A stretch of 64,000 nt of DNA. Source: Sinohyriopsis cumingii (taxonomy: Eukaryota; Mollusca; Bivalvia; Unionida; Unionidae). Position numbers and translations under genes: made by a program. The stretch is from assembly GCA_028554795.2 (NCBI GenBank), contig CM068830.1, forward strand, positions 49,734,355-49,798,354, read 5' to 3'. A model generated the notes under the pieces. The model saw only the letters and a list, made by a program, of their open reading frames with translations. It was not told where the DNA came from and made no database searches. Shown here piece after piece: positions 23,068 to 40,382 of the stretch. Position 1 is the stretch's first letter; each line of letters opens with the position of its first letter.

Positions 23068-23385
23068 AGTAGTAAAGTGGGGCACATTAGGGACAATGGG
23101 ACTTAGCATTAAAAAGACCCCTGGGTCAGATTAGGGACAATGGAAATTTAACATGGAGAGAAATCGGGGGTCACTTTAGGGACAATGGGAATTTAACATA
23201 GAGTTTGGGTCTGTCTAGGGACAAGGGAAATAAACATGGGGAATAGAGTTTGGGCTTTTGGGATTTTTTTTTTTTTAATTTTTTTAAATTTAAATTTAAA
23301 TTTAAATTAAAAAAAAGGGGTAGGCAATGGAAAGGCTATCTCTTTTCGAGAAATATGGCTGGCCCTGAAAAGGGCCTTTGGGTTT
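23068..23385 (+). repeat. Left terminal inverted repeat of the Polinton
   Basis: About 318 bp, matching 40,068-40,382 in inverse orientation almost throughout. The outer part is built of about 50-bp subrepeats around the motif TAGGGACAATGG...AACATG. A TTTAAA tract at 23,269-23,310 varies between the two ends. The innermost part holds the histone-type hairpin (23,361-23,376). Confidence 0.96.
23361..23376 (-). terminator. Histone-type 3' stem-loop in the left terminal repeat
   Basis: On the minus strand GGCCCTTTTCAGGGCC forms a 6-bp stem with a 4-nt loop. It fits the metazoan replication-dependent histone consensus GGYYCUUUUCAGRRCC. It is preceded by CCCAAA and followed by AGCCA and, 13 nt on, CTCGAAAAGAGATA, a U7-like purine element. 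It would serve small gene 1. An in-frame TAG lies 28 nt upstream once the SINE is disregarded. Confidence 0.8.
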
Positions 23386-23466
23386 TCTTCTTCTTCTTCT
23401 GCTTCTAGTTTCTTCTTTTTCTCCACCAAGTTCTTATTTTATCTCCAACACTCTTTCTCTTCTTTT

Positions 23467-23702
23467 GGGGCCCCGAGTGGCCGAGTGGTCTAAAGCGCTC
23501 TCCGTTACGGATCACTGCCATCTCACCTCTGTATGCGTAGGTTCGAGTCTCGGATTCGGCCAATGTGGGTATGTGAGAAAGCTTGCCAGTAGCTTCTCGA
23601 GGGTCGGTGGTTCTTTCCGTGGATTTCTCGGGTTCTTCCTCCACCATTAATACTGGCCGCCATGTATAGCCTATCGTGTGCTGAAAAATGGCGTTAAACC
23701 CT

Positions 23703-23733
<31 letters not shown>
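23467..23733 (+). mobile_element. tRNA-derived SINE inserted in the Polinton
   Basis: The tRNA-like head has A-box (GTGGCCGAGTGGTC) and B-box (GGTTCGAGTCTC) motifs. The body ends ATGGCGTTAAACCCTA, followed by a (CAA)n tail. A perfect 14-bp target duplication CTTTCTCTTCTTTT lies at 23,453-23,466 and 23,734-23,747. A related copy lies at 8,051-8,298, so the family is a host SINE. It split the 3' end of small gene 1. Confidence 0.95.
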
Positions 23734-24075
23734 CTTTCTCTTCTTTTCTTTCTTTTTTTTCTCCTGCACTTCTTTCTTCTTCTCTTCCTCCTCTTCTTTC
23801 TTCCTCTTTTCATTTTCTTCTTCTTTTTCAATTTTTTCATTCCATGCTCTCATCCTTATCCTTTCCTCTTCATCCTCCTTCTCGTCCTTTATTTCTTTCA
23901 ACAGATCACTGATGATTACCTTCATTTTTCGTAAATTCTTTATCTCCATCTTCACTCGATGGGGACTATAAGAATAGTGATCCTCGTTTAGGTTAACCAA
24001 CATTTGCTCTATCATTCCTAAATTGTCGAGGACGTTTTGCAATTTTTCCATTTTGTCCATTTGGTTAGAAGCCAT
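23701..24075 (-). CDS. Polinton small coiled-coil protein 1 (3' end altered by a SINE)
   Basis: 124 codons, ATG at 24,075, which is 64 bp from the shared promoter block. The N-terminal 60 residues are helical (MEKLQNVLDNL, then EIKNLRKMKVIISDLLKEI) and are followed by a long Glu/Lys/Arg coiled coil. The terminal run of leucines is not original: it is the antisense of the SINE's CAA tail. Removing the SINE and one target duplication leaves an open frame to a TAG at 23,405-23,407, 28 nt before the histone-type hairpin. It is paralogous to the genes at 25,226 and 26,086. The function is unknown; a virion-core or regulatory role would be guesswork. Confidence 0.7.
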
Positions 24076-24138
24076 CTTCTTTTTTTATTCTTTGCAGAAT
24101 GGTTTGAACGACGAATACTGTGGGTTCTTATACGAAAA

Positions 24139-24164
24139 GCGCGGACGTGAAGGAAAACATCCCC
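24139..24164 (-). promoter_or_regulatory. Shared promoter block of small gene 1
   Basis: On the minus strand this reads GGGGATG followed by TTTTCCTTCACGTCCGCGC. A TATA-like GTATAAGAA lies just downstream (24,125-24,133), and the ATG is 64 bp away. The same block precedes the other two small genes and the decayed copies. Confidence 0.75.
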
Positions 24165-24179
24165 CTACTTTTTCATTTC

Positions 24180-24690
24180 ATATAATAAAACCCAAACTAT
24201 ACTTTCTCATTTCATATAATAAAAACCCAAACTATACTCTCCACATACGCTAAGAAACAATAAACAAAATCCATAATCTACTATCCACACAATCTTACGT
24301 GAGCGCTTACAAAACCCAAACTATACTCTTCACATACGCTAAGAACAATAAACAAATCCATAATCTACTATTCACACAATCGTACGTGAGCGGGTACAAA
24401 CACAAACACAAACACACAAACACAAACACACAAACACATACGCTAAGAAACAATAAACAAATCCATAATCTACTATCCACACAATCGTACGTGAGCGGTT
24501 ACAAAACCCAAACTATACTCTCCACATACGCTAAGAACAATAAACTAATCCATAATCTACTATCCACACAATCGTACGTGAGCGCTTACAGAACCCTAAC
24601 TATACTCTTCACCTACGCTAAGAAACAATAAAGAAACCCATAATCTACTGTTCCCACAAACATACCTTAGCTCTTACAAGCACCAACACA
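24180..24690. repeat. Tandem repeat array, about 90 bp x 5
   Basis: Units start near 24,242, 24,331, 24,433, 24,524 and 24,609 with CACATACGCTAAG. They contain ACTATCCACACAATCGTACG and vary in the CAAACA-rich spacer. The array lies between small gene 1's promoter and small gene 2's hairpin. No coding function is likely. A shorter related pattern (ACTATCCACAC) appears in the remnant near 55,425. Confidence 0.85.
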
Positions 24691-24800
24691 CAAACACATA
24701 CTCTCACACTATCTTAAAAAAGAGTTAGTGTTTATAATCACACTACTCTACCTACACACACTGGCAAATCGATCGTTATTTCTTTTCTAGAGTATTGGGT

Positions 24801-24816
24801 AGCCCTGAAAAGGGCT
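24801..24816 (-). terminator. Histone-type 3' stem-loop of small gene 2
   Basis: On the minus strand AGCCCTTTTCAGGGCT is followed by ACCCA and then CTAGAAAAGAAATAAC. The stop codon of small gene 2 is 33 nt upstream. Stem, loop, cleavage context and purine element all match the histone mRNA 3' end arrangement. Confidence 0.8.
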
Positions 24817-24848
24817 GTTTTTTTTATTGGAACTTCATGGACATCTGG

Positions 24849-25226
24849 TTAATGGTGACACCTTCCAGGCCTGGCGCCGCATACACATCTTGTCCCCCAG
24901 TTACTTTTTACCTTTTTGGGGGAGAGAGCAGAGGCAGGATATGTCGCTTCAGGATCCCAATTTTCGCTCTCTGGGATTCTGAAATTTCTTCTTCTTCTCT
25001 CCTTTTCCTCCTCCTCCTCTTCTTTGTATCTTCTCTCCTCCTCTTTGTATCTTCGTTCCTCTTCTTTTTTATATCTTCTCTCCTCCTCTTCTTTGTTTCT
25101 TCTTTCCTCCTCCTCTCTTATCCTTCCCTCCTCCACAATGGCTTCCGCGGCCAGTTCATTTAATATGCGCCTGGCATATTCCAGATGCACATGAAGTTCC
25201 AACAGTTTCTCCAGTCTCGTGTTCAT
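24849..25226 (-). CDS. Polinton small coiled-coil protein 2
   Basis: 125 codons, ATG at 25,226, 65 bp from the shared promoter block, with a TATAAATT in between. It starts with a short helical region (RLEKLLELHVHLEYARRIL) similar to the paralogs. A Glu/Arg/Lys repeat region made of EEERRYK units follows at residues 35-75. The C-terminal 45 residues contain two Cys (RCVCGARPGRC) but form no known domain. The stop is followed after 33 nt by the histone-type hairpin. The function is unknown. Confidence 0.75.
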   Translation of the reverse strand: MNTRLEKLLELHVHLEYARRILNELAAEAIVEEGRIREEEERRNKEEEERRYKKEEERRYKEEERRYKEEEEEEKERRRRNFRIPESENWDPEATYPASALSPKKVKSNWGTRCVCGARPGRCHH

Positions 25227-25290
25227 TTTTGGTGTTGATCAATCAACAAGGGTAGCTGGACTGCCGAACGAGTTTCAATTTATAGTGAAA

Positions 25291-25316
25291 GCGCGGACGT
25301 GAAGGAAAACATCCCC
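25291..25316 (-). promoter_or_regulatory. Shared promoter block of small gene 2
   Basis: Identical core TTTTCCTTCACGTCCGCGC on the minus strand. TATAAATT at 25,277-25,284 lies about 50 bp before the ATG. This is the clearest TATA box of the three. Confidence 0.8.
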
Positions 25317-25672
25317 TAAAAACATAAAATTGATCTTACCTACATCATGACCAAAAAACAACAACAAATGAACCTAAAAGAAACACTCACTCACTTTTTA
25401 TGCTACCCATCACTATTTTAAATTTTTTTTTATAAATCACTTCAATAGACTATCCACATACGCAAAGCAATCCAATCTAACCCCAAATTTACACCTCAAA
25501 CACCAAAAAAAAAAAAAAAAAAAAGACATCATTTTAATCTACTATCCATACCAACTTACTTAACCACTTACAAACACAAACACATACCCTCACATTTTTT
25601 TAAAAAAAGAGTTAGTGTTTATTTTCACACTACTCTGCCTTCACACATTGGCAAATCGATTGTTATTTCTTT

Positions 25673-26086
25673 TCAAGAGTGTTGGGTAGCCCTGAAAAGG
25701 GCTGTTTTTTTGTTTGCTATGGCATTCTTTTTAGTTTCTAAGAATGCGATGTCCTCTGAGGATAGACTTTCTGGCGTAGGTCTGCTTCTTCGGAAAGAGA
25801 AGAAGAACTCTTTGGTGTCGATACGACAATCGACAAAGCCTCTGTCAGCTTCAGGTTGCTGCTGCTGCTCTTGTTGTTGTTGTTGCTGCTGTCTCTGAAG
25901 TCTGTGCTTCTCTGTCCATTCTTCTTTTTCCCTGTTCATTTCTTCTCTGAAGAGCTCTTCTATCAGGTCTTCAGTGATTTTTAACATTCTCACATTCTCT
26001 ATTTCTTCTGGCTTCGGTATCAGACTGTGTCTGACCCTATGCAAATTCACGTAGGCCTCGTTGAGTTTAGCTAGTTTGGAGCACAT
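25673..26086 (-). CDS. Polinton small coiled-coil protein 3
   Basis: The first ATG is at 26,086, 66 bp from the shared promoter block. Residues 1-60 are helical (MCSKLAKLNEAYVNL, MLKITEDLIEELFREE). A Gln run follows, then a conserved GFVDCRIDTKEFFFSF segment. The sister copy (59,344-59,787) agrees up to FFFSF and then differs because it has one more base in a T run. The open frame here stops at 25,673, beyond the predicted cleavage point of the histone-type hairpin, whereas the alternative frame stops 27 nt before it. A one-base deletion or homopolymer error is likely. The function is unknown. Confidence 0.7.
   Translation of the reverse strand: MCSKLAKLNEAYVNLHRVRHSLIPKPEEIENVRMLKITEDLIEELFREEMNREKEEWTEKHRLQRQQQQQQQEQQQQPEADRGFVDCRIDTKEFFFSFRRSRPTPESLSSEDIAFLETKKNAIANKKTALFRATQHS
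25688..25703 (-). terminator. Histone-type 3' stem-loop of small gene 3
   Basis: On the minus strand AGCCCTTTTCAGGGCT is followed by ACCCA and TTGAAAAGAAATAAC. In the frame used by the sister copy at 59.4 kb a TAA (25,731-25,733) lies 27 nt upstream. In the frame that is open here, the reading frame runs through the hairpin. Confidence 0.78.
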
Positions 26087-26151
26087 CTTCTTAGGAGGAT
26101 GAGTCGACAATGGATGGTTAGACTGGAAACAACCCGGTTCTTAAAGTCAAA

Positions 26152-26177
26152 GCGCGGACGTGAAGGAAAACATCCCC
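26152..26177 (-). promoter_or_regulatory. Shared promoter block of small gene 3
   Basis: Same core TTTTCCTTCACGTCCGCGC on the minus strand, 66 bp from the ATG. The TATA-like sequence (TTTAAGAA) is weak. The sister copy keeps the block at 59,853-59,878. Confidence 0.75.
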
Positions 26178-26516: not shown

Positions 26517-27830
26517 CTAGTAATCTAGGATGACTTCTCTCAAACTGTTGATTTCTATGGTATTATCGAATTCTGCATACAGGATGACGTTCACCGTTTC
26601 ATCAGGGTCTCGGTCTTTAAACTGAATTTCCACACGAATCTGGCCGGATTTTATAGGGTGGAAATGTCCCTCGTCGCTGCCTTGGTCTGGAGTGAAATCG
26701 AAAGCCCACAAAGCGTAGCCTCCTGCATAATCCTCGTACGTAATACCGTGACTGGTATTGGTTCCTAACTGTCCGGTGGCTTCGTACACGGACAAGTACG
26801 ATCTCAAGTAATTCTTCTTTTTAAAGTCAGGTTCGAAAGGTCGGGTACACAAGGTCTTGCCATCGCGACTGACTTCGATTTTGGACACGCCAAAGTGTTG
26901 AAAGTAGAAAGGATTTTTTTCGGCAGCTCCGTTGAAGGCTGTATTCTCGACGATACCAACGATCAAACGTTTGGGTAACTGTCCTTGGAACAGATGATCT
27001 TCGATCATGGATCGCTGTCCCTTGGGAATGGTGAAGGTTTTCACTTCCACGCGTCGTATGGGATACTTGGCGGTCGTTCTGCTCAACGTCTGACTGATGT
27101 CGTTTCCCACTTTAGGTAACACTTCCACACGGCGTACGTAGAGTCTGGCTTCTAGGATTTTGGTTTTGTAACCGTCACTATCAGCCATCAAATGGAAAGC
27201 GGCACTGCTACGATTCAGTCTCAGGCGGACATCCACCCCGTTCAGCAAATACTTTTCTTGCAACCACATGTCCAAATGCAAACGATCCATCAGTTCTAAA
27301 CTTGTGTCGGCTCCCGTGATTCTCTTTCTTCGTTCTACAAATCCATCATTGTTGTCTTTCTTTTCATCAGTTTCCAATATTTCAAACTTGGTAGGTTCGT
27401 CAGCTTCCCATACCACACAGGCATTGAGATGAGTGTTCTTGGCATCTATTCCGTACGTCAAGAGATTTTCCAGGTAGGCACGATAAGGGTAAGTATCCAT
27501 GCTGCTACTGACCAGTTTGTTATTCAAATACAAGTCCACTCCACTGAACAAGGAATGCATGAAATTGTTGACGGGAGCTACTGCTTCATCGTCTATAGCA
27601 CCTCCAGTCTTATCTAGAATTTTGACTTTCAGGTACAAGTAACTGCTATTCAGATCGAAGTAATCTTCGGGCTGTCCTTTGATTTCAAACTCGATGGGAG
27701 CGGAATCGGTCAGTGAGGAGACGGGGTGAAATTCCACCCACTGGGATTCTTGCATCGTCATCATTGTGGGGGGCATGGCAAACAGATCCAGTTCCGTCTT
27801 GGAACAAGCGCAAGATTCTCGGTGCATCAT
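26517..27830 (-). CDS. Polinton major capsid protein
   Basis: 437 codons, complete. The N-terminal half has the conserved blocks of Polinton/adintovirus capsid (hexon-like) proteins: C-S-K-T-E-L-D-L-F near residue 9, WVEFHPVSSLTDSAPIEF, DLNSSYLYLKVKI, NNFMHSLFSGVDLYLN and YPYRAYLENLLTYG. By family knowledge this is a double jelly-roll protein that builds the icosahedral shell. It begins MM, with the basic virion protein just upstream (17-nt gap), suggesting a shared transcript. Two AATAAA signals follow the stop. The frame is intact. In the 61-kb relic only about the last 30 codons survive. Confidence 0.93.
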   Translation of the reverse strand: MMHRESCACSKTELDLFAMPPTMMTMQESQWVEFHPVSSLTDSAPIEFEIKGQPEDYFDLNSSYLYLKVKILDKTGGAIDDEAVAPVNNFMHSLFSGVDLYLNNKLVSSSMDTYPYRAYLENLLTYGIDAKNTHLNACVVWEADEPTKFEILETDEKKDNNDGFVERRKRITGADTSLELMDRLHLDMWLQEKYLLNGVDVRLRLNRSSAAFHLMADSDGYKTKILEARLYVRRVEVLPKVGNDISQTLSRTTAKYPIRRVEVKTFTIPKGQRSMIEDHLFQGQLPKRLIVGIVENTAFNGAAEKNPFYFQHFGVSKIEVSRDGKTLCTRPFEPDFKKKNYLRSYLSVYEATGQLGTNTSHGITYEDYAGGYALWAFDFTPDQGSDEGHFHPIKSGQIRVEIQFKDRDPDETVNVILYAEFDNTIEINSLREVILDY

Positions 27831-29190: not shown

Positions 29191-29603
29191 AATTCCAGAG
29201 TTCTGTGGCTGTCCGAGGGGTTACTGGACGTCAGAGGCGTGTCTCCGTCTAAAATGGGGTTCTGGTTGTGATTGAAGTGGTGACTGGCACTGGCACTGGA
29301 CACAAGGTTCCCGGGGTTCCCGTTCGAGGTGAATTTCAGGGAGGGATTAGGAAGCAGGTAACCGATGCAACTGCTCAATAAAATGGTCCACAATTGTTTG
29401 TCTCCTTGTTGCAAACTCAAATTGGCGATGGCTGCCCCGATGACACAATAAACCACGAAGATTTGGCAGAAAAAGACGATTTGCGTTTTAGGCACACGTT
29501 CTCCACACCACACCCACAAGGGTTGTTTTTGTAAAGCTTGCACAGAAGAACTAGGTGAAGGAGGAGTGGTCGACGTAGCTGCGTCTGCTGTGTGAAAGGG
29601 CAT
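29187..29603 (-). CDS. Polinton two-helix membrane protein
   Basis: 138 codons from an ATG at 29,603. A Ser/Thr/Pro-rich start is followed by a basic-aromatic segment, a strongly hydrophobic helix (IVFFCQIFVVYCVIGAAIA), a short QQGDKQ loop and a second hydrophobic helix (LWTILLSSCIGYLL). The tail is polar and Asn/Ser-rich. TATAAAAG lies 12-20 bp before the ATG inside the integrase gene, and the gene overlaps the integrase 3' end by 53 nt in another frame. The copy at 62,216 is highly similar in protein but has lost the ATG (ATT). A role in virion membrane or assembly is possible but unproven. Confidence 0.7.
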   Translation of the reverse strand: MPFHTADAATSTTPPSPSSSVQALQKQPLWVWCGERVPKTQIVFFCQIFVVYCVIGAAIANLSLQQGDKQLWTILLSSCIGYLLPNPSLKFTSNGNPGNLVSSASASHHFNHNQNPILDGDTPLTSSNPSDSHRTLEL

Positions 29604-30717
29604 GATGGTCACTTCTTTTATAGTCGATGACTTGCGAAGCGTCGATCCAAGAATCAAAACTGGGTGGATGTCCTTTCCAACGTACTTTGACTTCTTTGAC
29701 ACGTCGTTTGCCCACTTTACGGGTTCTGCGTTCGAGAATGCTTTCGATGTCGTACACGTCGTCTTCTTTTTTGGTGACACGTTGTAACTCGGGCAAACAA
29801 AACGTTCCTTTGAGCACTTCTCCGTTCATGTCTTCCAATTTATAGACGGCAGGATGACGGCCATGCACTCGTCCAGTGACGCGAAACAATTCGGTCGTCC
29901 AGTTAGGTAAGTAACCTTTGTCGAAAGTGCGTTTGGTTTTGCCAATGCGCACCCAATCTCCTACAGCCAACACTCCACTTTTCTTGGGGACAGCCCTCGT
30001 CGGGGATGTACCAAACAGGCGCTCAAACACCAGCACTTCGTTGTCGGGAGTCACGTCTTGCGGGGCACGTCCGATGCTTCGATGGTAAGATTCGTTGTAC
30101 GCTTGCACCAGGTGCAGTAAGATGTCGATGTACTTCAGAGTGTGGTGATGCGTAAAATATTTCCACATGCGTTCTTTCAAAGTGCGTTGAAAACGTTCCA
30201 CGATGCTGGCTTTGGTTTCGGGATTCTCGGTGGTAAAAAAATGAATGTCACGTTTCTTTAATTCTTTTTGGAAAGCTTGGTTCAGAAATTCGGTACCTTT
30301 GTCCGTTTGCCATCGAAGAGGGTGACGACCGCTTTGTTTCAACACCCGTTGCAGGGCTCGCACTAACTCGCTGCTCGATTTGGAAGTCAAGGGTACGACC
30401 CAAGCAAATTTGGAAAAGACGTCGCTGACACAAAACAAATATTTGTAGCCACGATTGTAGCTGGCCAAATGAGAGACATGGGCTAAATCGGCTTGCCATT
30501 GATGATCGATGCCTTCCACTCGGGTGCGACTTCTGGCAAACTTGCGTCGAATGGGTTTGTGTAAAGTGTAGGTAGCTGGTTCTTGTAACCATCGTTGCAC
30601 TTGAGGTAAACGGAGACTTTTCAGTCGCGTTTTGGCAGCACGATACAATTTTTGAACTCCTGCGTAACCTGCAGGATTGGAGGGATCGTAGTAAATGCTG
30701 GCTAAGACTTTTTCCAT
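29551..30717 (-). CDS. Polinton integrase (rve core plus chromodomain)
   Basis: 388 codons, complete. The retroviral-type core carries D77 (QADLAHVS), D139 (QTDKGTEF) and E174 (SIVERFQRTL), giving the D,D35E spacing. This enzyme joins the linear element to host DNA and makes the 6-bp duplication seen here. A chromodomain lies at about residues 318-362 (DVYDIESIL, VKEVKVRWKG, SFDSWID) and probably guides targeting to chromatin. No N-terminal HHCC finger is evident. All catalytic residues are intact. Chromodomain fragments of a second copy lie at 58,961-59,021 and 62,640-62,745. Confidence 0.94.
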   Translation of the reverse strand: MEKVLASIYYDPSNPAGYAGVQKLYRAAKTRLKSLRLPQVQRWLQEPATYTLHKPIRRKFARSRTRVEGIDHQWQADLAHVSHLASYNRGYKYLFCVSDVFSKFAWVVPLTSKSSSELVRALQRVLKQSGRHPLRWQTDKGTEFLNQAFQKELKKRDIHFFTTENPETKASIVERFQRTLKERMWKYFTHHHTLKYIDILLHLVQAYNESYHRSIGRAPQDVTPDNEVLVFERLFGTSPTRAVPKKSGVLAVGDWVRIGKTKRTFDKGYLPNWTTELFRVTGRVHGRHPAVYKLEDMNGEVLKGTFCLPELQRVTKKEDDVYDIESILERRTRKVGKRRVKEVKVRWKGHPPSFDSWIDASQVIDYKRSDHHALSHSRRSYVDHSSFT

Positions 30718-31864: not shown

Positions 31865-32782
31865 TTATACTGGAACGCGTCGCCACTGATTGTCTTGACG
31901 TCGTATTAGTTTGAGGACAGGCGTGACACGTCGTGCAGGGGTACGTAACGGACTAAATCGAGCCAGTTCTTGCTTGGACAAATCCAGTAAACTTTGTAAC
32001 ATGTCCGATCTTTCTTGAACTTTCATTTTGGGAGAAGGTACTTTGTGAGCAGCAGCCACTGCCACTAAATTGGAAGGTCCTGCCACTAGGGAAGTTCTTT
32101 TGGGGGTCATCAACGGAGAAATTCTTGGTGTGATCAACGTCTCCAAGTACTCTTCAGTTCTGGGTGTCATTAACGGAGAAGTGGACAAACGTGAAGCTGC
32201 CGGAGACGCAGTCACTGCCGTGGCAGGTCGTGGTTTGCGAGTGTAAGGTTGCGTCCTGGCCGAAGTGCCTCTCTTGCGGCTAGTTTTCTGTGGACTTTTC
32301 TTTTTCTGGGGGCTTCTTTTCTTTTTCCGGGGTGGTGGTGTCTGGTCAGAGGAGGGTCCTGCCACTGGAGAAGTTCTCCTTGGGGACCTGGTCTTTTTCT
32401 TCTTGGGGCTTCGTTGGACTTTTGTCTTGGGTATAACTTTAGGGGCATTAGGATCCCATCTTAAGAGAGAGCGAATGATGACCCCTCCTAGAGTACCGCT
32501 CCCTCCAGGTTTCAAAATGATTTGTTTTATGGTTTGAGTGTCGATGCGGGAATCGGCCAGTTGGACCAAAGCGACATTGTTTCGATCGAAAAAGCGTTTG
32601 GTTTGATGAGGAATCTGAATGATTCCTTGGAGTAATTGACGTGCCGTCACCGTGAACCATCGTAAGACTTCTTTGAGACTAGCTTCTAAGACACGAGCTC
32701 GTGTTTGTGGATCTTTTTCTCGACTGATGCCATACAAGGCACGAATCAATTTGACGGGAAGATGCGACTGAAGGGACGTCAT
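31865..32782 (-). CDS. Polinton basic Pro/Ser-rich protein of unknown function
   Basis: 305 codons with an ATG at 32,782 and TATAAAAA at 32,822-32,830, about 40 bp upstream. Residues 1-110 look folded (LPVKLIRALYGISREKD, VALVQLADSRIDTQTIKQII, GTLGGVIIRSLLRW). Residues 115-215 are low-complexity and very basic (SPKKKKTRSPRR, PPPRKKKRSPQKKK), and three TSPLMTP-like repeats follow. The tail is helical and basic. The composition suits a nucleic-acid-condensing virion protein, but I do not recognise the family. Confidence 0.65.
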   Translation of the reverse strand: MTSLQSHLPVKLIRALYGISREKDPQTRARVLEASLKEVLRWFTVTARQLLQGIIQIPHQTKRFFDRNNVALVQLADSRIDTQTIKQIILKPGGSGTLGGVIIRSLLRWDPNAPKVIPKTKVQRSPKKKKTRSPRRTSPVAGPSSDQTPPPRKKKRSPQKKKSPQKTSRKRGTSARTQPYTRKPRPATAVTASPAASRLSTSPLMTPRTEEYLETLITPRISPLMTPKRTSLVAGPSNLVAVAAAHKVPSPKMKVQERSDMLQSLLDLSKQELARFSPLRTPARRVTPVLKLIRRQDNQWRRVPV

Positions 32783-32836: not shown

Positions 32837-33580
32837 TTATGGGGAGTGAAATGAAGTCGAGGACGGAGACGTGTACAGGACAGGCCCTCCGTCTTGGCAC
32901 CAGTGGTGAAACAATTGGGTACGAAATCGCAAATCCTCGGGAGTCGTAGGTTTCAAATCGACGAGAAAATAGGCGTGTGGAGTTTGAGTGGCATCGTCGT
33001 ACGCCTGAGTCAGCCAAGGCGTTCCTAACTGTTTGGCTAAGACTTGCACTTGCGATTTATCTCGAGGGCTTTTAAACAAGACCACGTAATGCGCATTGAG
33101 ACTGATGGTGCGATGAGCTTTACTTTGTTGAAACAAATTTTGGGTGATGTAAACGACACTGGCATTACGGTGATGCCCTTTGCGCGTGAACCACAGTTTA
33201 ATTTCTTCTTCGTCTTCTCCTAACATGCCGTCGAAAATGACCAAATGGGTTAGACGGGAGTCAGAGACGATGTCGTCGTCTTCTTTAGGAATGCCTTCCA
33301 CAAACACGATGGAATCGCCTTGACTTTCTCGCAAGAGGCTGTACGCCAATTGCCACTCTTTGTAACACCACACGATTCGTTGAGGGGGTCGATCGATCAA
33401 ATGATGTTTATGTTCGATCAAACGTTTGACGAATTCGGTTTTGCCTGAACCGCTAGGTCCAGCAATGAGCATGTTAAAGGGATGGCGAAGATACAAAGCC
33501 TCCCAACTGGCACGATCTAAGTGTTCGTCGATGACTTTGACAGTAGAGGAAGAGGGAGCAGAGACAGCAGAGGTAGCCAT
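32837..33580 (-). CDS. Polinton genome-packaging ATPase (FtsK/HerA superfamily)
   Basis: 247 residues from the ATG at 33,580. A longer in-frame extension upstream has an unconventional position beyond the TATA box and is not preferred. Walker A AGPSGSGKT lies at residues 40-48 and Walker B THLVIFDGMLGE near 120. Sensor-like VVYITQNLFQQSK and the LNAHYVVLFKSPRD block are typical of Polinton, virophage and NCLDV A32-like packaging ATPases. Such enzymes drive DNA into preformed capsids. TATATAAA at 33,628-33,636 lies about 50 bp upstream. The frame is intact. Confidence 0.92.
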   Translation of the reverse strand: MATSAVSAPSSSTVKVIDEHLDRASWEALYLRHPFNMLIAGPSGSGKTEFVKRLIEHKHHLIDRPPQRIVWCYKEWQLAYSLLRESQGDSIVFVEGIPKEDDDIVSDSRLTHLVIFDGMLGEDEEEIKLWFTRKGHHRNASVVYITQNLFQQSKAHRTISLNAHYVVLFKSPRDKSQVQVLAKQLGTPWLTQAYDDATQTPHAYFLVDLKPTTPEDLRFRTQLFHHWCQDGGPVLYTSPSSTSFHSP

Positions 33581-34074: not shown

Positions 34075-37000
34075 CTATCGATCTTGCCTAGGGTTCCTTT
34101 TCATATACAGACCAATACCGACGTGACCGTACGGTAAGGTGAAGTGATTGGGAAGTCGCACTCGCTTCTGGTATACAATTTGATAGACTTTTTCCAAGGG
34201 TCGACTGACGATGTGGTGAGTGGGTAAACGTACAATCTTGTTCGGTTGATAGGTGGTCACTTTAAAGTTTCCATCCTCTCCCGATTGCAAGGCTTCTTTC
34301 AATACCCCAAAGTTGACCACTCGACTGGTACGATGATTCAGAGTCAGTCCTTTCACTTTGCACGTCGTGTGCACTTCTCCTTGTTTGTCCCGGTATTCGT
34401 AGCCGTAATTTTTGGGACCACCACTGACGAAACTTAGAATCTTGTCGTCGGGATGCTCGTCTGTCCAGGCTCCTAAACGGTCTCCTTCGATGTCAGGGTG
34501 CTGTTGAATCGGGTGATGGATGTAAATGCAACTGTCCGTGTCAAAGTACAGGACGCGTTCTTCTAACAGTTCTAAAGCTTCGTACAATTTTAAGCGAGCA
34601 TGAGCTGTCACGTAAGCCGCAATGATGACATTTCCAAAAGGGTCGTCTTGTACAAAGTCCAGATCTTCTTCGTAATTGACCAAGATCAAATCCTCTCGAA
34701 CGAGGTCCACGTGTTTCATGTATTTGGTTTTGTCGTGAATCATCTGGAAGTAGCGGGAAGGTTCTGTCAAATATTCCGTCTTGGGTAAACACGGTCGTTG
34801 TGCCATTTTACCCCACAAGCAATTTAACATCACTTTGGCAAACGATCGCCTGCCTTCGTTTTTTTCGATGTGGTCTAAAGAGATGCCTTCTTGTGCGTAG
34901 TATTTCTCTTTGAATTGTATTTGGTCTTCGGGAGTGTGACACCAGGAAGGATAGCCGCTGGCTTCTTGTTTCAGTTTCAAAAAGGCATCCACGTAATCGG
35001 CGAAAATGCCTTTCTGAGTAGGGTCACCCTTGTGGTACTGTTGTGTCTTGGGAAAGTGGCAAATTTCGTACACTTCTAACAGTTGGTATCCCATGTCCAG
35101 AGCTTTGAACAATTCCACGCTGACCCAGGTTCCCGTCAAGGCACGTTCTTCCTGGCTGTGATGGCAAGGTTGGTCCTGGTTGCACGTTTCGGCACAAGTA
35201 CGGCACAAGGGAAACATCAGTTTGCCTTGACAATGGTGAGGTAAGACGGGATGGTATAGGTTCGTGGGAGGCAAAACTTTACACTTGATCAAGCCTTCGT
35301 ATTGTCGAATGTTTTTCAGGTCGATGTGTTCCGTGAACAATTGCCGGTGCACTACAGGAAAGCGACAATATTTGCACACGTAGGGATACAGCGAACACAC
35401 GTCCAAGTATTTGATTTCTTCTCCTTTCTCTTCGTCGGCTTGGTACAGCAAACAGGTGGCATTGGTCCTTCCTCCGTACAAACTATCCCTCGGGTTCAGC
35501 GGGTCCATGAACTGGTAACTTTCCACGAGGCGTTTAAACTCGGGATCGGTTTTCAAACGGTGATCGTACTCGTGTTCCCACATTTCCACCACTTGGTATC
35601 CTTGCTGTTCTAACTTTAGGCGTCGCTGACAAGTGTCCTGGTACAAGTCTTCCATGGTTCGTTGCAAAAACTGATTTTTAGTGTCACGGTCAGGGTAACA
35701 GACGGGACATCCGTGAAATAAGCAACCGTTAAACTCGTACACGATCTTGGGGTTTTCTAAGTCCCAGCCATCTACCGAATACGTTCCGATGGTCTTTTCG
35801 CCTCCTCCGTTGCGGGCATGCTGAATCCATTTGTCTTCCTTGTCGCACAAGTAATGTAACCAACGTAGGGCTTTGACCGAGTATTGACGCTTGACATAGT
35901 GGGTCGTTTGAGGACTGATGACAGCCACGGTGTTTTCAGGCATGAATCGTTGGCGGTACACTAAGGAACACGCTTTGGCAATGGTGCAAGCTTCTTTCAA
36001 AGGATCGACCCCTCCGTGTTCCATGAACAGTTCTCGAAATTTTCCACAGCAACGTCGTAAAATGTCCACGTCGGAACGACAATACTTTAACATTTCTTCC
36101 TGAAAGTCGAAGGGGTCAGAGGCATGAGCCTGGTACCAAGCGTAGAAATCTTCTCGTTGTTCGGTACGCATGTTGTCGGGGTCGTAATAGTGAGCCTCAG
36201 GTAAATGGGGTAGAACGGCATGTTGATTGGCTTCCGTATTGAAAAAGTGTGGAAAGTACCCTTTAGCCATTTCTGTCATTCCAAACGTTTTAGGCATTCG
36301 ACTCAAAGGCATGGCCAAGTAACTCATCGAATCTTTAAACTGCACTTGTCCCACTTGCATGAAAATGATTTTGGCTCCGTTCAAAGTGACTTTAGGACGC
36401 TCGGTGCCTTGTTCCGCATAGTACCTCAAAAGAAACTGTCCATCGTATCCGGAGAAATTGTGAGCCATCACCGTGGCATGACGATGACAATCTCCGTAAC
36501 GTTCGATGTCCTCTTGGCTCCACGTCTTGTCGATGGGGTCTATGACCCATTGGGCAAAATCGGCTAACGTGTTTGGTCCCCGAAAGATTTTTTCACGTCC
36601 TCCAGGAATCTTGCTGCAGTGAGGGCAATGACTGAAGATAGGCTCTTGAATGCACTTCTCGCACGCTCGATGAGCCACGCAGAAATTAGGGATGTGAATG
36701 CCAGTCTCTTGCATGCATTCGAAATCGAAAAAGATGAAATTGCCTTTCTTCTTGTGACCGTCCTCTTTCTCTGGTAGGGGTTGGTATTTTTGCACGTAAC
36801 ATTCGTGTTCCAAGTCCACGATGTGGTGACAAATGTGACATTTTTTCTTTCCTCGACGTACGTGTGCCTTGGCATTGTTGGTAAGTATGCCTTGTCCACA
36901 CGTAGGGCACAATCTCAGGAGTTGACAAGCACATTTCTTCTGTGAGCCTTGTGTTTTCAAATGTTGCTGGTAACAGGCAGGGCTGACAAACGTGCGCAGA

Positions 37001-37248
37001 CAAGTCGAACAAGGTACTGGTTCTTCGCTCAGACAGGGTGGAGAGGCCAAACATCCTGGGCATTTCAATCCACAATGCTTGTGTTGCTCTCGATTGTTAT
37101 AACCATAATCACATTTCTCACAATAATAACTGTATCCCAGGAATCCGGTGATACTGGTAATGGTATCGAAATGGTCATCGTGATAATAAAGGTGAATGTA
37201 TTTTCCGTCCTTAAAATCCTGGCCTCGAAACAACAGAGACCCGCGCAT
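34075..37248 (-). CDS. Protein-primed DNA polymerase B (Polinton)
   Basis: 1,057 residues from the first ATG (37,248). The N-terminal 160 residues are rich in CxxC pairs, starting YYCEKCDYGYNNR. Exonuclease motifs are FFDFECM (D175, E177), AHNFSGYDGQF (N264, D269) and YCRSDVDIL (D393, D395). Then come YEFNGCLFHGC, motif A YLDVCSLYP (D616), motif B KVMLNCLWGK and motif C YFDTDS (D903, D905). All catalytic residues are present, so proofreading and synthesis look intact. In this family the polymerase is normally fused to the domain encoded here by the next ORF upstream (37,284-38,123), which ends 14 nt before this open frame begins. One frame change separates them. Confidence 0.95.
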   Translation of the reverse strand: MRGSLLFRGQDFKDGKYIHLYYHDDHFDTITSITGFLGYSYYCEKCDYGYNNREQHKHCGLKCPGCLASPPCLSEEPVPCSTCLRTFVSPACYQQHLKTQGSQKKCACQLLRLCPTCGQGILTNNAKAHVRRGKKKCHICHHIVDLEHECYVQKYQPLPEKEDGHKKKGNFIFFDFECMQETGIHIPNFCVAHRACEKCIQEPIFSHCPHCSKIPGGREKIFRGPNTLADFAQWVIDPIDKTWSQEDIERYGDCHRHATVMAHNFSGYDGQFLLRYYAEQGTERPKVTLNGAKIIFMQVGQVQFKDSMSYLAMPLSRMPKTFGMTEMAKGYFPHFFNTEANQHAVLPHLPEAHYYDPDNMRTEQREDFYAWYQAHASDPFDFQEEMLKYCRSDVDILRRCCGKFRELFMEHGGVDPLKEACTIAKACSLVYRQRFMPENTVAVISPQTTHYVKRQYSVKALRWLHYLCDKEDKWIQHARNGGGEKTIGTYSVDGWDLENPKIVYEFNGCLFHGCPVCYPDRDTKNQFLQRTMEDLYQDTCQRRLKLEQQGYQVVEMWEHEYDHRLKTDPEFKRLVESYQFMDPLNPRDSLYGGRTNATCLLYQADEEKGEEIKYLDVCSLYPYVCKYCRFPVVHRQLFTEHIDLKNIRQYEGLIKCKVLPPTNLYHPVLPHHCQGKLMFPLCRTCAETCNQDQPCHHSQEERALTGTWVSVELFKALDMGYQLLEVYEICHFPKTQQYHKGDPTQKGIFADYVDAFLKLKQEASGYPSWCHTPEDQIQFKEKYYAQEGISLDHIEKNEGRRSFAKVMLNCLWGKMAQRPCLPKTEYLTEPSRYFQMIHDKTKYMKHVDLVREDLILVNYEEDLDFVQDDPFGNVIIAAYVTAHARLKLYEALELLEERVLYFDTDSCIYIHHPIQQHPDIEGDRLGAWTDEHPDDKILSFVSGGPKNYGYEYRDKQGEVHTTCKVKGLTLNHRTSRVVNFGVLKEALQSGEDGNFKVTTYQPNKIVRLPTHHIVSRPLEKVYQIVYQKRVRLPNHFTLPYGHVGIGLYMKRNPRQDR

Positions 37249-37283
37249 TTCTTGAGGGTGCACTTTCAAGGTGTAGCGTGGAG

Positions 37284-38123
37284 CTAGGGCATCTTAGGAA
37301 TGCCACAGGGTGTGTCTTTGGACAGGCCAGCTTGTTGCAACAGGAATTCTGCTTCGTTTCGTTGTTTGGCTCGATCGGATCGTTGAATAGTTTTCCAGGT
37401 TCTTTTCCATTCTACCGTGTCGTTCTTGTTGGCATAGGTTCGTCCCACCACGATGGCACGGGCTATACACATCTGGTCTTGAGGGTTGTGAATTCGGACG
37501 AGACTTGTTTTGGTGTTGCGAAGGTTGTCCACCAATAACATCTTTTTGCGTCCTGTCCCTTGAGGAAGAGAGACGTGGACCATTTTCAGTGTGGCTTTAC
37601 CATCGGTGATGTCAAACTGGTCATTAGATTGTTGTACGTGTTGAATCTTGTCCATGATTTTGGAAGGGGTTAGTTCTGCGGGTCTGCTAAACTCGATCCA
37701 AACAGGGGATTTCAAACCGTCGTGATCTATGGATAGTGTCAAGCGATCGTCTTCTTTGGGTTGACATTGTTGATTGAGTGCGGTGAGCAAAGAATCCCAC
37801 ATCTCGGTGATAAACCCTTCTGCTTTCTGCAAGGGTACGTCGGCCTTGAAATCTTTAAACTTCACCGTGTAGGTGTAAGCCGTGGTTCTAAATTTTCTAG
37901 AGGAGCGCTTTTCCGTCTCTCGAATGGAATAGTACTTTTCAGGGTTGACTAAGGGTGGTGAACTTGGTTTAGAGGGTTCGGATTCTGGTTCACTCATGTC
38001 CTCTTCAAAATCACTGGCATGAATTTGTGCCAAGATTTCAGCCCTGGTACGAGGCGATAGATTACGTTTCTGCCTCTTACTTTCTTCTTCTTCTTTCTTC
38101 TCGAATGAATAGGATCGTTTCAT
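37284..38123 (-). CDS. N-terminal domain of the Polinton polymerase, as a separate ORF
   Basis: 279 codons with ATG at 38,123 and TATAAAT at 38,171-38,178. A charged, disordered start is followed by a conserved domain (YTVKFKDFKADVPLQKA, VRIHNPQDQMCIARAIVV, FLLQQAGLSKDTPCGIP). These blocks are known to me as the N-terminal region of Polinton PolB proteins, upstream of the zinc-rich and exonuclease parts, where the priming or terminal-protein function is suspected. Here it stops with TAG just before the polymerase frame. A frameshift or a real gene split are both possible. Confidence 0.75.
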   Translation of the reverse strand: MKRSYSFEKKEEEESKRQKRNLSPRTRAEILAQIHASDFEEDMSEPESEPSKPSSPPLVNPEKYYSIRETEKRSSRKFRTTAYTYTVKFKDFKADVPLQKAEGFITEMWDSLLTALNQQCQPKEDDRLTLSIDHDGLKSPVWIEFSRPAELTPSKIMDKIQHVQQSNDQFDITDGKATLKMVHVSLPQGTGRKKMLLVDNLRNTKTSLVRIHNPQDQMCIARAIVVGRTYANKNDTVEWKRTWKTIQRSDRAKQRNEAEFLLQQAGLSKDTPCGIPKMP

Positions 38124-38256
38124 CTTGAGTGCAAAACGTCAAATGACTCAAGTTCAAACACCATAGACTAATTTATAGTCATGGCAAACCAGCATATATA
38201 AAAAGGGTGTGTCTTGTCCTTTCACTATTCATTTCACTCTCAAACCGAGGAGAACG
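38124..38256. promoter_or_regulatory. Divergent promoter between polymerase-domain ORF and CCHC gene
   Basis: Two TATA boxes face apart within 25 bp: TATAAAT on the minus strand (38,171-38,178) and TATATAAAAA on the plus strand (38,195-38,204). Each lies 50-60 bp from its ATG (38,123 and 38,257). Confidence 0.7.
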
Positions 38257-38747
38257 ATGGAAGAGACTAACCAAATCGAACGTTTCGTCAGAGCTTTGCG
38301 AGGAGTCATTAGAAAATTCTCTTCAGACCAGCCGACAGACTACTCTCCTTCCTTTCGAGATAAGAGTCAGGATACTTGCTATATCTGTCAGAAGAAAGGG
38401 CATTGGTCTTCAGAGTGTCCAGACCGTCGAAAAAGAAAAAAACAGGGGCTAAAAGAGACAAAAGTCAAGATGCCTGTTATTATTGTAAAGAAAAAGGACA
38501 TTGGTCTCCAGATTGCCCAAAAAAGAAACAAGAGGAGTCAGAAGAAAAGAAGGATTCTTCAGAAGAAGAGAGGGATTCTTCGGAAGAAGAGAGGGATTCT
38601 TCGAAAGAAGAGAGGGATTCTTCAGAGGAAGAAGAGGAAGAAAGAAGACAATTCTATTTAAAAGAAGCAAAGAAACAGGAGAAGAAAAGAAGAAGGGAAG
38701 AAAATGAGGAAAAAACGGTGAAGAAATTCAAAAAACAGAGAGACTAA
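38257..38747 (+). CDS. CCHC zinc-knuckle protein with probable -1 frameshift
   Basis: The ATG at 38,257 (MEETNQIERFVRALRG) lies 53 bp past a TATA box. The first knuckle, CYICQKKGHWSSEC, is of the C-x2-C-x4-H-x4-C type. A second knuckle, CYYCKEKGHWSPDC, and an acidic EEERDSSEEE tail ending at 38,747 are in the -1 frame. The frames overlap at AAAAAAAC (38,436-38,443), where the zero-frame codons form an A-AAA-AAA slippery heptamer. Without shifting, the frame continues to 38,661 as a basic, low-complexity tail. The knuckles suggest nucleic-acid binding. Programmed shifting, an indel or an assembly error are the alternatives. A decayed relative lies at 56,130-56,560. Confidence 0.65.
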
Positions 38748-38997
38748 ACAAGGAGAAAGAAGAAGTCAATGAACTTTTAATTAAAGTGTTCTGTGGTGAA
38801 TTGTGAATTGGATTGTAAAAAATGGATAAAAGAATACATGAATGATATAAGGTAAGTGTCTTTGAGTTTTGATTTTAAAATAAGAAGTTACACTCACGCA
38901 CTCATACACAGACACGTACTATAAGGGTAAAATGGGTGGGGTTTATTTTTGAGTTATTGGTAAATTGAAATTGTATTTCTTTTCGAGAAATGTGGGT
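38748..38997. other. Non-coding gap in the Polinton
   Basis: AT-rich spacer between two convergent genes. It holds ATTAAA-like signals for the CCHC gene near 38,778 and the purine element of the next hairpin (38,978-38,990). Confidence 0.5.
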
Positions 38998-39013
38998 GGC
39001 CCTGAAAAGGGCC
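38998..39013 (-). terminator. Histone-type 3' stem-loop of small gene 4
   Basis: On the minus strand GGCCCTTTTCAGGGCC is followed by ACCCA and, 9 nt later, CTCGAAAAGAAATA. The stop of the gene at 39,039 is 25 nt upstream. It is the most histone-like of the five because flank, stem, loop, ACCCA and purine element all agree. Confidence 0.82.
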
Positions 39014-39038
39014 TTTTTATTTTGGTGTAGGGGTGAGT

Positions 39039-39599
39039 TTAACCAATCAACTTTAACTGCCTTAAGCCTTTGCCACGGCCAAGGCCTACTTCTGATGATT
39101 GGATTGAAATCACTAAGGGTGGTACGACAGGCTTAGTCACAGGGTTGGCGTGTTTAGCTCGGGAAGGTCGTATTCTCTTCGGTCGTGATAAAGAAGTCTG
39201 ATACATTTGTTTCAGACTTCTTAACTCCGCTAAAATGTCCAACAGTACTGTAGCCGTTTGATTTTCACCCTCTTGTTTCTTTGCTGCTACTTCTTCTTGC
39301 TGTTGTTGCTGTTGTTTTTTTCTTACCTCTTCTTGTTGCTGTTGCTGTTGCTGTAGGAGAAAAGCTTGTTCCGCTTCCTTTTGTCGTTGCATAAATTTCT
39401 CCAATTCTTCTTTCTGTCTCTGTCTAAAATTCTCCACTTGCGGTAATGAAGAAGGTAACGAAGGTTCCGGAACAAATTCTTGCGAGGTAAGAAAATCCAC
39501 AAAATCCCAATGTACCTCTTCTGAAAGTAAGTCCGGGTTCCCTTGGGCAGTCTCCCCTGCTGGTGCACCCCAATGGATCGTTTTCTGAGTTTCCGTCAT
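39039..39599 (-). CDS. Polinton glutamine-rich coiled-coil protein (small gene 4)
   Basis: 186 codons, ATG at 39,599, TATA (CTATATAG) at 39,647-39,654. An acidic N-terminus (LLSEEVHWDFVDFL) is followed by a coiled coil with EELEKFMQRQKEAEQAF and two glutamine runs at residues 80-105, then an LLDILAELRSLKQMY helix and a basic tail (RPKRIRPSRAKH). It resembles small genes 1-3 in general design and in its hairpin but lacks their shared promoter block. The function is unknown. Confidence 0.72.
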   Translation of the reverse strand: MTETQKTIHWGAPAGETAQGNPDLLSEEVHWDFVDFLTSQEFVPEPSLPSSLPQVENFRQRQKEELEKFMQRQKEAEQAFLLQQQQQQQEEVRKKQQQQQQEEVAAKKQEGENQTATVLLDILAELRSLKQMYQTSLSRPKRIRPSRAKHANPVTKPVVPPLVISIQSSEVGLGRGKGLRQLKLIG

Positions 39600-39646
39600 G
39601 TTGAATCACTGTCGCATAGATTGACTGAACACAAGCGCTAGCGAAT

Positions 39647-39774
39647 CTATATAGACCAACTGACGTCACAGACTACTCTCTTCGGATTGGATGCGGGCTG
39701 ACTGAATTTTGTAACGCGTGTTTGGATTGGTGAATGAACTCAATCCGTTTCAATCCTGCCTCTACCTATAAATA
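39647..39774. promoter_or_regulatory. Divergent histone-like promoter region
   Basis: Faces small gene 4 (-) and the small basic gene (+). It contains TATA boxes CTATATAG (39,647-39,654, minus) and TATAAATA (39,767-39,774, plus), a perfect CRE palindrome TGACGTCA (39,661-39,668) and two ATTGG/CCAAT boxes (near 39,687 and 39,725). Divergent pairs with CCAAT boxes and hairpin 3' ends are the layout of metazoan H2A-H2B genes. Confidence 0.65.
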
Positions 39775-39818
39775 AGCGCAGTTCAGTGCACTGATTCACT
39801 TGTTCTCGTCGCTTCAAG

Positions 39819-40052
39819 ATGTTGACCGATGTGCAATCTTCTACGCTTGTGTCTTCCATGATGTTCCGGACGGACATACCCATGTATGTCCGATCCAAGT
39901 GGACCGTTGTCCAGAGGACAAACACCAGCCTGTGGATACGTAGGATCTACGTAGAAAGACAAGGATGCCTGAAAAGAGTGCTGATTTACGGACCAACAGT
40001 GAGACGTAGCCTAAGGACAAGAAGAAGACCAATGCGGTACCATTTATGTTAA
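39819..40052 (+). CDS. Small basic Polinton protein ending in the right terminal repeat
   Basis: 77 codons from an ATG 45 bp past TATAAATA. The product is basic, with clusters RRIYVERQGCLKR and RRSLRTRRRP near the end and few acidic residues. No known domain is visible and it is not a histone. Its stop is 24 nt before the histone-type hairpin in the right terminal repeat, the same spacing as the other hairpin genes. An antisense open frame (39,841-40,098) overlaps it but has no promoter. Confidence 0.6.
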   Translation: MLTDVQSSTLVSSMMFRTDIPMYVRSKWTVVQRTNTSLWIRRIYVERQGCLKRVLIYGPTVRRSLRTRRRPMRYHLC

Positions 40053-40067
40053 TGAATACATTAACAT

Positions 40068-40382
40068 AAACCCAAAGGCCCTTTTCAGGGCCAGCCATAT
40101 TTCTCGAAAAGAGATAGCCTTTCCATTGCCTACCCCTTTATTTAAATTTAAATTTAAATTTAAATTTAAAAAAATTTTTAAAAAAATCTTAAAAGCCCAA
40201 ACTCTATTCCCCATGTTTATTTCCCTTGTCCCTAGACAGACCCAAACTCTATGTTAAATTCCCATTGTCCCTAAAGTGACCCCCGATTTCTCTCCATGTT
40301 AAATTTCCATTGTCCCTAATCTGACCCAGGGGTCTTTTTAATGCTAAGTCCCATTGTCCCTAATGTGCCCCACTTTACTACT
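40068..40382 (-). repeat. Right terminal inverted repeat of the Polinton
   Basis: About 315 bp, inverse of 23,068-23,385, ending CCCCACTTTACTACT. It differs from the left copy mainly in the TTTAAA tract (40,138-40,190). Confidence 0.96.
40077..40092 (+). terminator. Histone-type 3' stem-loop in the right terminal repeat
   Basis: GGCCCTTTTCAGGGCC on the plus strand, preceded by CCCAAA and followed by AGCCA and CTCGAAAAGAGATA. It serves the plus-strand gene ending at 40,052. Because it is part of the terminal repeat, both outermost genes of the element end in the same signal. Confidence 0.8.

Follow-up and report, generated by a model that had tools for sequence, protein, structure and literature searches.

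The 17,315-bp element at positions 23068..40382 of the 64,000-nucleotide Sinohyriopsis cumingii window (the whole stretch of DNA that was analysed) is an integrated Polinton/Maverick, a virus-like transposon. It is bordered by a 6-bp target duplication (GCTCCT, at 23062-23067 and 40383-40388), and the target site is present once, without a Polinton, in a related repeat of the host (about 4840-4900 of the window). Polinton terminal inverted repeats (TIRs) have 5'-AG..CT-3' termini and come with a 6-bp target duplication; both features are present here. The left TIR (318 bp, 23068..23385) has its inner edge about 9 nt before the first of the hairpins described below, and the right TIR covers 40068..40382. 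The two differ by 7 mismatches per 315 aligned bases, with 3 additional gap columns, and the insertion is therefore fairly recent.

The gene content also resembles that of Polintons/Mavericks and adintoviruses. Pfam profile matches identified a type B DNA polymerase (34075..37248, minus strand; PF03175, 2.5e-39), an rve integrase with a chromodomain (29551..30717, minus strand) and an A32-like packaging ATPase (32837..33580, minus strand; PF04665, 28.9 bits for a cut-off of 22.8). Polinton DNA polymerases are protein-primed. The product of the minus-strand gene at 26517..27830 had no match in a sequence search of the PDB. Its AlphaFold2 model (pLDDT 83.4) gave Foldseek matches to the capsid proteins of iridovirus, Sputnik and mavirus, and according to this predicted structure it is a double jelly-roll major capsid protein. 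A CCHC zinc-knuckle gene (38257..38661, plus strand), convergent with small gene 4, shows an apparent frame break in this copy. No ORF of at least 100 aa lies between the capsid gene and small gene 3 of the window copy. A protease-like ORF (judged by eye) is present in a second, decayed element of the window, and tblastn finds it in 17 of 20 relatives' loci; the hairpin of this second element is broken, and none was found at its TIR-like end.

The element additionally carries five small genes. Gene 1 (23701..24075, minus strand) is K/E-rich and its ORF is broken by a SINE (about 23478-23718); related ORFs occur in other Polinton copies. Gene 2 (24849..25226, minus strand; 125 aa) and gene 3 (25673..26086, minus strand), the frame of which is disturbed near its end in the window copy, were each found in 17 of the 20 relatives' loci. 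Gene 4 (39039..39599, minus strand; 186 aa) has 20 homologues at E ≤ 0.01 and is present in 19 of these loci, with a reachable gene end in 17. Gene 5 (39819..40052, plus strand) encodes a basic protein of 77 aa (pI 11.6) and faces outward, and similar ORFs occur in three relatives' loci (L008, L009 and L013). None of the five proteins matched a histone domain in Pfam; these genes are not histones.

Each small gene is followed by a hairpin of the type that closes replication-dependent histone mRNAs. The initial annotation had reported five such hairpins with positions and strands, all of which proved exact, and had described them as histone-type stem-loops, which is borne out by matches of 30.0-41.2 bits to the Rfam Histone3 model (RF00032; gathering score 34, with three hairpins above it and two just below). 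The 3' module of gene 1 (23336..23381, hairpin 23361-23376, minus strand) continues after the hairpin with AGCCA and then GAAAAGAGATA (35.6 bits), and that of gene 5 (40072..40117, hairpin 40077-40092, plus strand; 35.6 bits) is its TIR copy. The modules of gene 2 (24776..24821, hairpin 24801-24816; 31.0 bits, E = 6.4e-5), gene 3 (25663..25708, hairpin 25688-25703; 30.0 bits, E = 1.4e-4) and gene 4 (38974..39018, hairpin 38998-39013; 41.2 bits, E = 9.6e-9), all on the minus strand, continue after the hairpin with ACCCA and then GAAAAGAAATA; those of genes 2 and 3 also have a match in the host. The hairpins have a 6-bp stem, a 4-nt loop, a U-A closing pair and a G-C second pair. In shuffled sequence, 0.07 such hairpins are expected at ≤2 mismatches, and the 64-kb window contains no further Histone3 match up to E = 5. 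The annotated succession of A(C/G)CCA and GAAAAGA(A/G)ATA was seen after all five. Hairpins 1 and 5 are nevertheless one module counted twice, since both lie within the 318-bp TIRs; the count of five thus stands for the hairpins themselves, but corresponds to only four distinct modules, with ACCCA after the stem in three and AGCCA in one. ACCCA-type cleavage flanks are a motif of histone mRNA 3' ends.

The hairpins were said to lie 24-33 nt past the stop codons, and we measured 24-32 nt for genes 1-5. The ORFs of genes 2, 4 and 5 are clean and give 32, 25 and 24 nt, respectively. For gene 1, the 28 nt are measured from the stop beyond the SINE inserted in the ORF, and for gene 3 the distance of 27 nt only applies in a frame other than that of the longest ORF. 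The initial annotation had itself flagged these two cases, and relatives settle both in its favour: relatives of gene 3 end 25-39 nt before the hairpin, and the gene 1-like ORFs found in other copies end upstream of their own hairpins.

The same reading depended on related elements, in which the hairpins are present and aligned, on the correct side of the genes as in the window. Anchoring on proteins rather than on sites, we found the hairpin core (6 of 8 letters) behind the gene in all 51 copies that could be tested, with a full stem in 40; this count comes from 20 loci that had been selected for carrying another hairpin, less three loci without a reachable gene end for each of genes 2, 3 and 4. 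One relative (L111) has no in-frame stop ahead of the hairpin of gene 2, and in many Polinton copies the frames are open as far as the hairpin. In modules preselected by a hairpin filter, pairwise identity is 0.94-0.96 for the hairpin and 0.83-0.96 for the purine block, and about 0.3 from 20 nt upstream. Among relatives' modules chosen by hairpin or Histone3 score, the ACCCA flank is found in 47 of 47 TIR modules, 16 of 19 for gene 4 and 25 of 37 for genes 2/3.

Poly(A) signals differ between two gene classes in relatives. In the window, the capsid gene has no hairpin, with AATAAA at +108 and +206, and the CCHC gene likewise has no hairpin, with ATTAAA at +118. The protease-like gene that closes the capsid block in relatives shows AATAAA in 14 of 16 cases and a hairpin in none of the 16. 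Conversely, in relatives' modules chosen as above, a poly(A) signal was found before or after the hairpin in 0 of 37 for genes 2/3, before it in 2 of 19 and after it in 1 of 19 for gene 4, and, among 47 TIR modules, before it in 2 and in the 114 nt past the stem in 7. The proposed contrast between a hairpin-free capsid side with AATAAA and small genes ending in hairpins therefore holds in relatives, but is blurred in the window, where AATAAA precedes the hairpins of genes 2 and 4, starting 8-12 nt ahead of them, and also follows the modules of genes 3 and 4. Because of these signals, the window copy of genes 2, 3 and 4 could be polyadenylated.

We then compared the element with one host histone unit (L122), in which H2A, H1, H3, H4 and H2B each close with the same kind of module (Histone3 scores of 35-39 bits, 27-38 nt from stop to hairpin). 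At E ≤ 0.003, BLAST aligns this unit with the Polinton only at three promoter boxes and at the five 3' modules. The hairpin of H2B agrees with the Polinton hairpin in every letter. GAAAAG lies at stem+13 in all four distinct Polinton modules and at stem+13/14 in all five host genes, for a chance of about 0.0014 per module. The stem is fully paired in the nine host and Polinton modules, with two pairs changed on both sides, an outcome that 22 of 500 shuffles also reached. The first base pair is A-U in the hairpins of genes 2/3, which is not the case in any of the five host genes. There, the stem is directly followed by ACACA, ACTTT, ACACA, ACAAA and ATACA and not by ACCCA, so the cleavage flank of the Polinton is not that of the host. 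Searches of the host for U7 (Rfam) and SLBP (Pfam) gave no match, nor did any control genome, so these searches are uninformative.

A box of 24-26 bp, shared with host H2B and H1 (BLAST; 23/26 and 22/26 identities, respectively), precedes small genes 1 (24136..24161), 2 (25288..25313, followed by TATAAA) and 3 (26149..26174), on the minus strand in each case. Mismatches over its 24-base core number 1 and 2; the best result of 100 block shuffles, obtained in 2 of them, was 6. No such box was found at genes 4 and 5, where the best site has 11 mismatches out of 24, and no clear one in host H3 and H4. The box at genes 1-3 had been overlooked in the initial annotation.

Taken together, module anatomy, conservation in relatives, agreement with the histone genes of the host and the contrasting 3' signals in the capsid block make it highly probable that this Polinton puts its five small genes under the 3'-end signal of host histone genes and adds the histone promoter box to three of them; use of the SLBP/U7 pathway is inferred from this. 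In the likeliest scheme, host histone factors would switch on genes 1-3 through the promoter box during S phase. SLBP would bind the hairpin, the U7 snRNP would pair with the GAAAAGA element and CPSF73 would cut after ACCCA. The mRNAs would then exit without a poly(A) tail, be translated during DNA replication and be degraded once replication stops. The structural block would stay with ordinary polyadenylation, giving the element two classes of expression that differ in their 3' ends. The presumed benefit of S-phase expression is that the small proteins would be made while the replication machinery required by the element is present.

Host histone genes are the probable source of the modules, which would have been captured and later duplicated. 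We lean, with some reserve, towards a transposon lineage having captured the full histone regulatory shell (promoter box and SLBP/U7 end) for a putative S-phase, poly(A)-free class of non-histone genes; capture is made less likely by a host flank that differs from ACCCA. The main alternative concerns origin, with the same pathway: the Polinton may have evolved the module and the box itself to suit host factors. This convergence is possible at best. It would account for a host similarity confined to short functional blocks, for the ACCCA flank and for the A-U first pair of the gene 2/3 hairpins, but the identical H2B hairpin, the 23/26 box and the common GAAAAG at its distance from the stem exceed a general animal consensus.

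Whatever their origin, the modules could be relics of a pathway formerly used by the small genes, the present copies being silent. The window copy, in which gene 1 holds a SINE, gene 3 and apparently the CCHC gene have frame breaks and gene 3 is preceded by no protease-like ORF, lends this some credit. It is doubtful, however, given the full stem in 40 of the 51 gene-anchored hairpins, the many copies with frames open up to the hairpin and the 7/315 TIR divergence of a fairly recent insertion. It is improbable that the hairpin works otherwise, as a transcription terminator, as a stability or localisation element of polyadenylated mRNAs, or as an SLBP/U7 decoy. The AATAAA near genes 2, 3 and 4 of the window copy would fit such roles, and tens of thousands of modules could serve as a sink. 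Against them, ACCCA and a U7-type element at host spacing serve cleavage, no poly(A) signal surrounds the hairpins of genes 2/3 in relatives, and the promoter box is also common to host histone genes. A DNA-level role in TIR replication or integration, with gene-end copies as by-products, is very improbable and was rejected as the sole role: two of the five hairpins do lie inside the TIRs, but at the inner end and not the terminus, the three interior ones sit behind genes in coding-strand orientation, and modules of this kind also close the histone genes of the host. We also rejected a bacterial-type terminator, as well as a stray host histone remnant, the hairpin lying behind five different genes and recurring in many copies.

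In animals, the histone-type 3' end is not known outside replication-dependent histone genes. The Polinton modules resemble these 3' ends in stem, loop, A-rich 5' flank, purine element, spacing and stop distance, but belong to non-histone genes of a mobile virus-like element and are known here from their sequence. Among the open papers covered by our searches, we found none describing Polintons or adintoviruses with a histone promoter box or with 3' ends of the histone type. In the bivalve Lucina pectinata, histone mRNAs are reported to have a palindrome close to the stop codon, with purine-rich elements in some genes, in a passage dealing with histone genes only (PMC6210712). Bracovirus and giant viruses are reported to carry histone proteins (PMC9145170) and also draw on histone biology; unlike them, the Polinton would carry a regulatory shell around unrelated proteins. 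If confirmed, the Polinton would couple its genes to host DNA replication in a way that is new among DNA virus-like elements. Such RNAs would escape oligo-dT libraries, and the predictions are therefore directly testable.

Outside the host, we found no relatives in IMG/VR (capsid and polymerase queries, capsid alignment) or in a phage collection, and the exact promoter pattern had no match in IMG/VR. One IMG/VR contig with the hairpin pattern (L001) was rejected as a chance match, because its ORFs are bacteriophage-like by eye and Rfam gave nothing for it up to E = 1. Five more distant stretches of animal-type Polintons, found among bacterial MAG records (L002-L006), gave neither a histone-like hairpin nor a Histone3 match up to E = 1, but hardly test the small-gene region since they mainly contain the polymerase-to-capsid genes.

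Finally, we looked at the distribution of the modules in the host genome. The 75 best-scored Histone3 matches of 589,472 first-look candidates (the control gave a match below the cut-off in Lactococcus lactis) were classified by script, with a few misplaced, as 49 TIR and 26 gene-4-like modules; at 7 of the 75 loci, no frame of at least 40 codons ends ≤60 nt from the hairpin. No histone gene was seen among these 75 even though host histone genes score 35-39 bits, and the 75 are therefore uninformative on the Polinton-to-histone ratio. Allowing one mismatch, and counting places by pattern rather than classifying them one by one, we found 42,104 promoter boxes (a pattern that also fits H2B) and 50,733 3' modules (a pattern at least 2 letters off each of the five L122 histone genes), with 0 in backward controls. 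If capture is the right reading, some 50,000 modules may compete for SLBP and the U7 snRNP. This raises the question of how the host handles so many extra histone-type ends, and the tens of thousands of modules form a natural set for studies of SLBP/U7 specificity.

The element at window 23068-40382 carries genes for a type B polymerase, an rve integrase with a chromodomain and an A32-like ATPase, which identify it as a Polinton. The predicted fold of its capsid protein matches double jelly-roll capsid proteins, and the nearest named relatives of this protein are found in Mercenaria and oysters, from which the host, an animal, is probably a bivalve. The host genome measures 2.9 Gb, of which the window is C7:49734355-49798354. 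The terminal inverted repeats (TIRs) of the element are 318 bp long with 96.9% identity, start with AG and end with CT. The host sequence GCTCCT stands on both sides of the element as a 6-bp target duplication, and it occurs once, without the element, in a related host repeat at window ~4840-4900, which represents the empty site. The target is itself another repeat family, the sequences at 22301-23059 and 40378-41078 matching 4055-5568, i.e. the copy with the empty site.

The initial annotation had described five histone-type stem-loops at window 23,361, 24,801, 25,688, 38,998 and 40,077. These positions are exact, and the five hairpins are the only matches to the Histone3 model (Rfam RF00032) within the 64-kb window. 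Hairpins 1 and 5, however, belong to a single module that is present once in each TIR, which brings the number of distinct modules to four, each made of a hairpin, an ACCCA-type flank and a purine element (GAAAAGA). The ungapped identity between these four modules is 0.94 in the hairpin and 0.88 in the purine element. Upstream it is 0.19-0.33, reaching 0.60 over the final 12 nt, and farther downstream it drops to 0.33 (0.53 in the last block shown). The hairpins of genes 2 and 3 are set apart from the other modules by a two-sided base-pair change, G-C to A-U.

Then, the modules were compared with the histone genes of the same host. A PF00125 profile search of the host genome, with 150 matches scored, revealed histone genes in tandem units of ~8.3 kb. 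These units sit on many small contigs (e.g. C310, C531 and C801), and the histone cluster is therefore large and poorly assembled. In one unit (L122), the genes of H2A, H1, H3, H4 and H2B, located by their open reading frames, each terminate in a Histone3 match (35.0-39.4 bits), with 27-38 nt between stop codon and hairpin. The hairpin shared by Polinton genes 1, 4 and 5 recurs unchanged in H2B; the H2A, H3 and H4 hairpins differ from it by the loop's last base alone and the H1 hairpin by one base pair. In all five host genes and all four distinct Polinton modules, 13 or 14 nt separate the stem from the start of GAAAAG. The fourth base pair is C-G in both the host histone genes and the Polinton, whereas it is U-A in the printed Rfam consensus. 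The flank directly past the stem is ACCCA or AGCCA in the Polinton, unlike all five host genes of L122 (ACACA in H2A and H3, ACTTT in H1, ACAAA in H4, ATACA in H2B).

The resemblance extends to promoters, a feature beyond the claim of the initial annotation. Genes 1-3 each begin with an exact copy of a 26-bp box (0 expected from shuffles), found in the host promoters of H2B (23/26) and H1 (22/26) of L122, with a reversed copy (20/26) near the inferred start of the neighbouring unit's H2A; the best match ahead of H4 (18/26) is within chance level. For the 24-base core of the box, H2B has 1 mismatch, H1 has 2 and the reversed copy has 5, while the best result from 100 block shuffles of the histone unit was 6 mismatches, in 2 shuffles. 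Down to an E value of 0.003, BLAST between the window element and the histone unit returned hairpin modules and boxes only, weaker matches falling for the most part on these modules and boxes again or on simple repeats. No box was found between genes 4 and 5 (best, 11 mismatches out of 24); this region contains TATA- and CCAAT-like words, by eye.

We then investigated the conservation of these signals among relatives. Scanned with Histone3, the host genome yielded 75 scored matches, which are the best candidates only. In each of the 75 loci, BLAST matched at least 207 bases to the window element; none shows the core-histone motifs that were sought upstream of the hairpin, and many show a C-terminus resembling gene 1, 4 or 5, followed by the hairpin. 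In a gene-anchored test, aimed at hairpins that had played no part in the selection, loci were chosen by their TIR hairpin and the other genes were then located by protein search, which left 17 testable copies per gene (3 of the 20 loci left out for each of genes 2, 3 and 4). The hairpin core was present in 17 out of 17 reachable copies of each gene, with a full stem in 14 copies for gene 4, 13 for gene 2 and 13 for gene 3. One gene 2 copy (locus L111) has no in-frame stop ahead of the hairpin. As the gene 3 relatives stop 25-39 nt ahead of the hairpin (printed offsets), gene 3 of the window is, judging from these sequences, broken near its end and not built through the hairpin. Among the 20 loci, 19 have two to four boxes at no more than 5 mismatches, every one in the same orientation as the hairpins, and only L110 has none. 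With at most one mismatch, the box core occurs at 42,104 places in the host genome and the hairpin-to-purine core at 50,733 (backward controls, 0 for both), totals that take all places together, unclassified by source. The box pattern matches host H2B as well, and the 3' pattern misses the five L122 host genes by at least 2 letters. Among the first places listed on contig C1, box and module are often ~0.4-0.5 kb apart (e.g. 131348/131852 and 5416043/5416526).

By their 3' signals, the genes of relatives fall into two classes. Of 16 copies of the protease-like gene, which closes the capsid block, 14 have AATAAA or ATTAAA within 250 nt (AATAAA in all 14) and 0 have the hairpin core. The capsid gene has neither signal within 250 nt in 16 out of 16, which would fit a transcript shared with the next gene. 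At the relatives' hairpins, poly(A) signals were found in 0/37 before and 0/37 in the 114 nt after (genes 2 and 3), 2/19 before and 1/19 after (gene 4), and 2/47 before and 7/47 after (TIRs). The window copy is less clean than its relatives, with AATAAA near genes 2, 3 and 4.

The 3' ends of histone mRNAs are processed through SLBP, the U7 snRNP and CPSF73. Since the same host's histone genes carry near-identical signals, host factors should recognise both histone and Polinton modules. The hairpin, the purine element and the S-phase coupling of histone mRNAs are treated in PMC5011920. The small genes of the Polinton carry signals of the type expected for S-phase-bound mRNAs that lack poly(A). 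The observation of the initial annotation is thus confirmed and extended, and its interpretation, the use of the histone pathway by one gene class of a mobile element, is supported at sequence level. In open papers, we found no account of histone-type 3' ends for either Polintons or adintoviruses; the search covered few subscription papers, and this absence is no proof.

Small proteins 1-5 have no Pfam match above the curated cut-off. By eye, proteins 1-4 resemble coiled coils or are rich in Q, E and K, and protein 5 is basic (pI 11.6); their role is perhaps in regulation or DNA binding during replication. Gene 1 contains a SINE, tRNA-like by eye, at window 23478-23718 (second copy at 8052-8292, 93%), with an apparent 14-bp duplication on both sides, also by eye. 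Overlapping GT-rich direct repeats lie between genes 1 and 2 (24222-24709). A CCHC zinc-knuckle gene (38257-38661) has a seeming second knuckle in a different frame and is therefore probably broken in the window copy. A very basic protein of 305 aa (31865-32782; pI 11.8) has many SPKK-like repeats that, by eye, recall histone H1 tails.

Finally, window 54079-62745 holds a second Polinton copy, older and rearranged. It has TIR-like repeats without hairpin (54079-54590), a decayed box (55873-55898) and another box (59850-59875). It also contains a relative of gene 3 (59344-59787) with a hairpin that lacks part of the 5' arm but keeps the 3' arm, ACCCC and the purine element. More distant, animal-type Polinton stretches (L002, L003, L004, L005 and L006) occur in records labelled as bacterial MAGs (tubeworm or mussel symbionts, Breoghania, Rickettsiaceae) and are probably contaminating host DNA. 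A Twister-P1-like ribozyme match (L003:11734-11798; 28.9 bits, below the gathering threshold of 67.2) lies a few hundred bases past a capsid gene.
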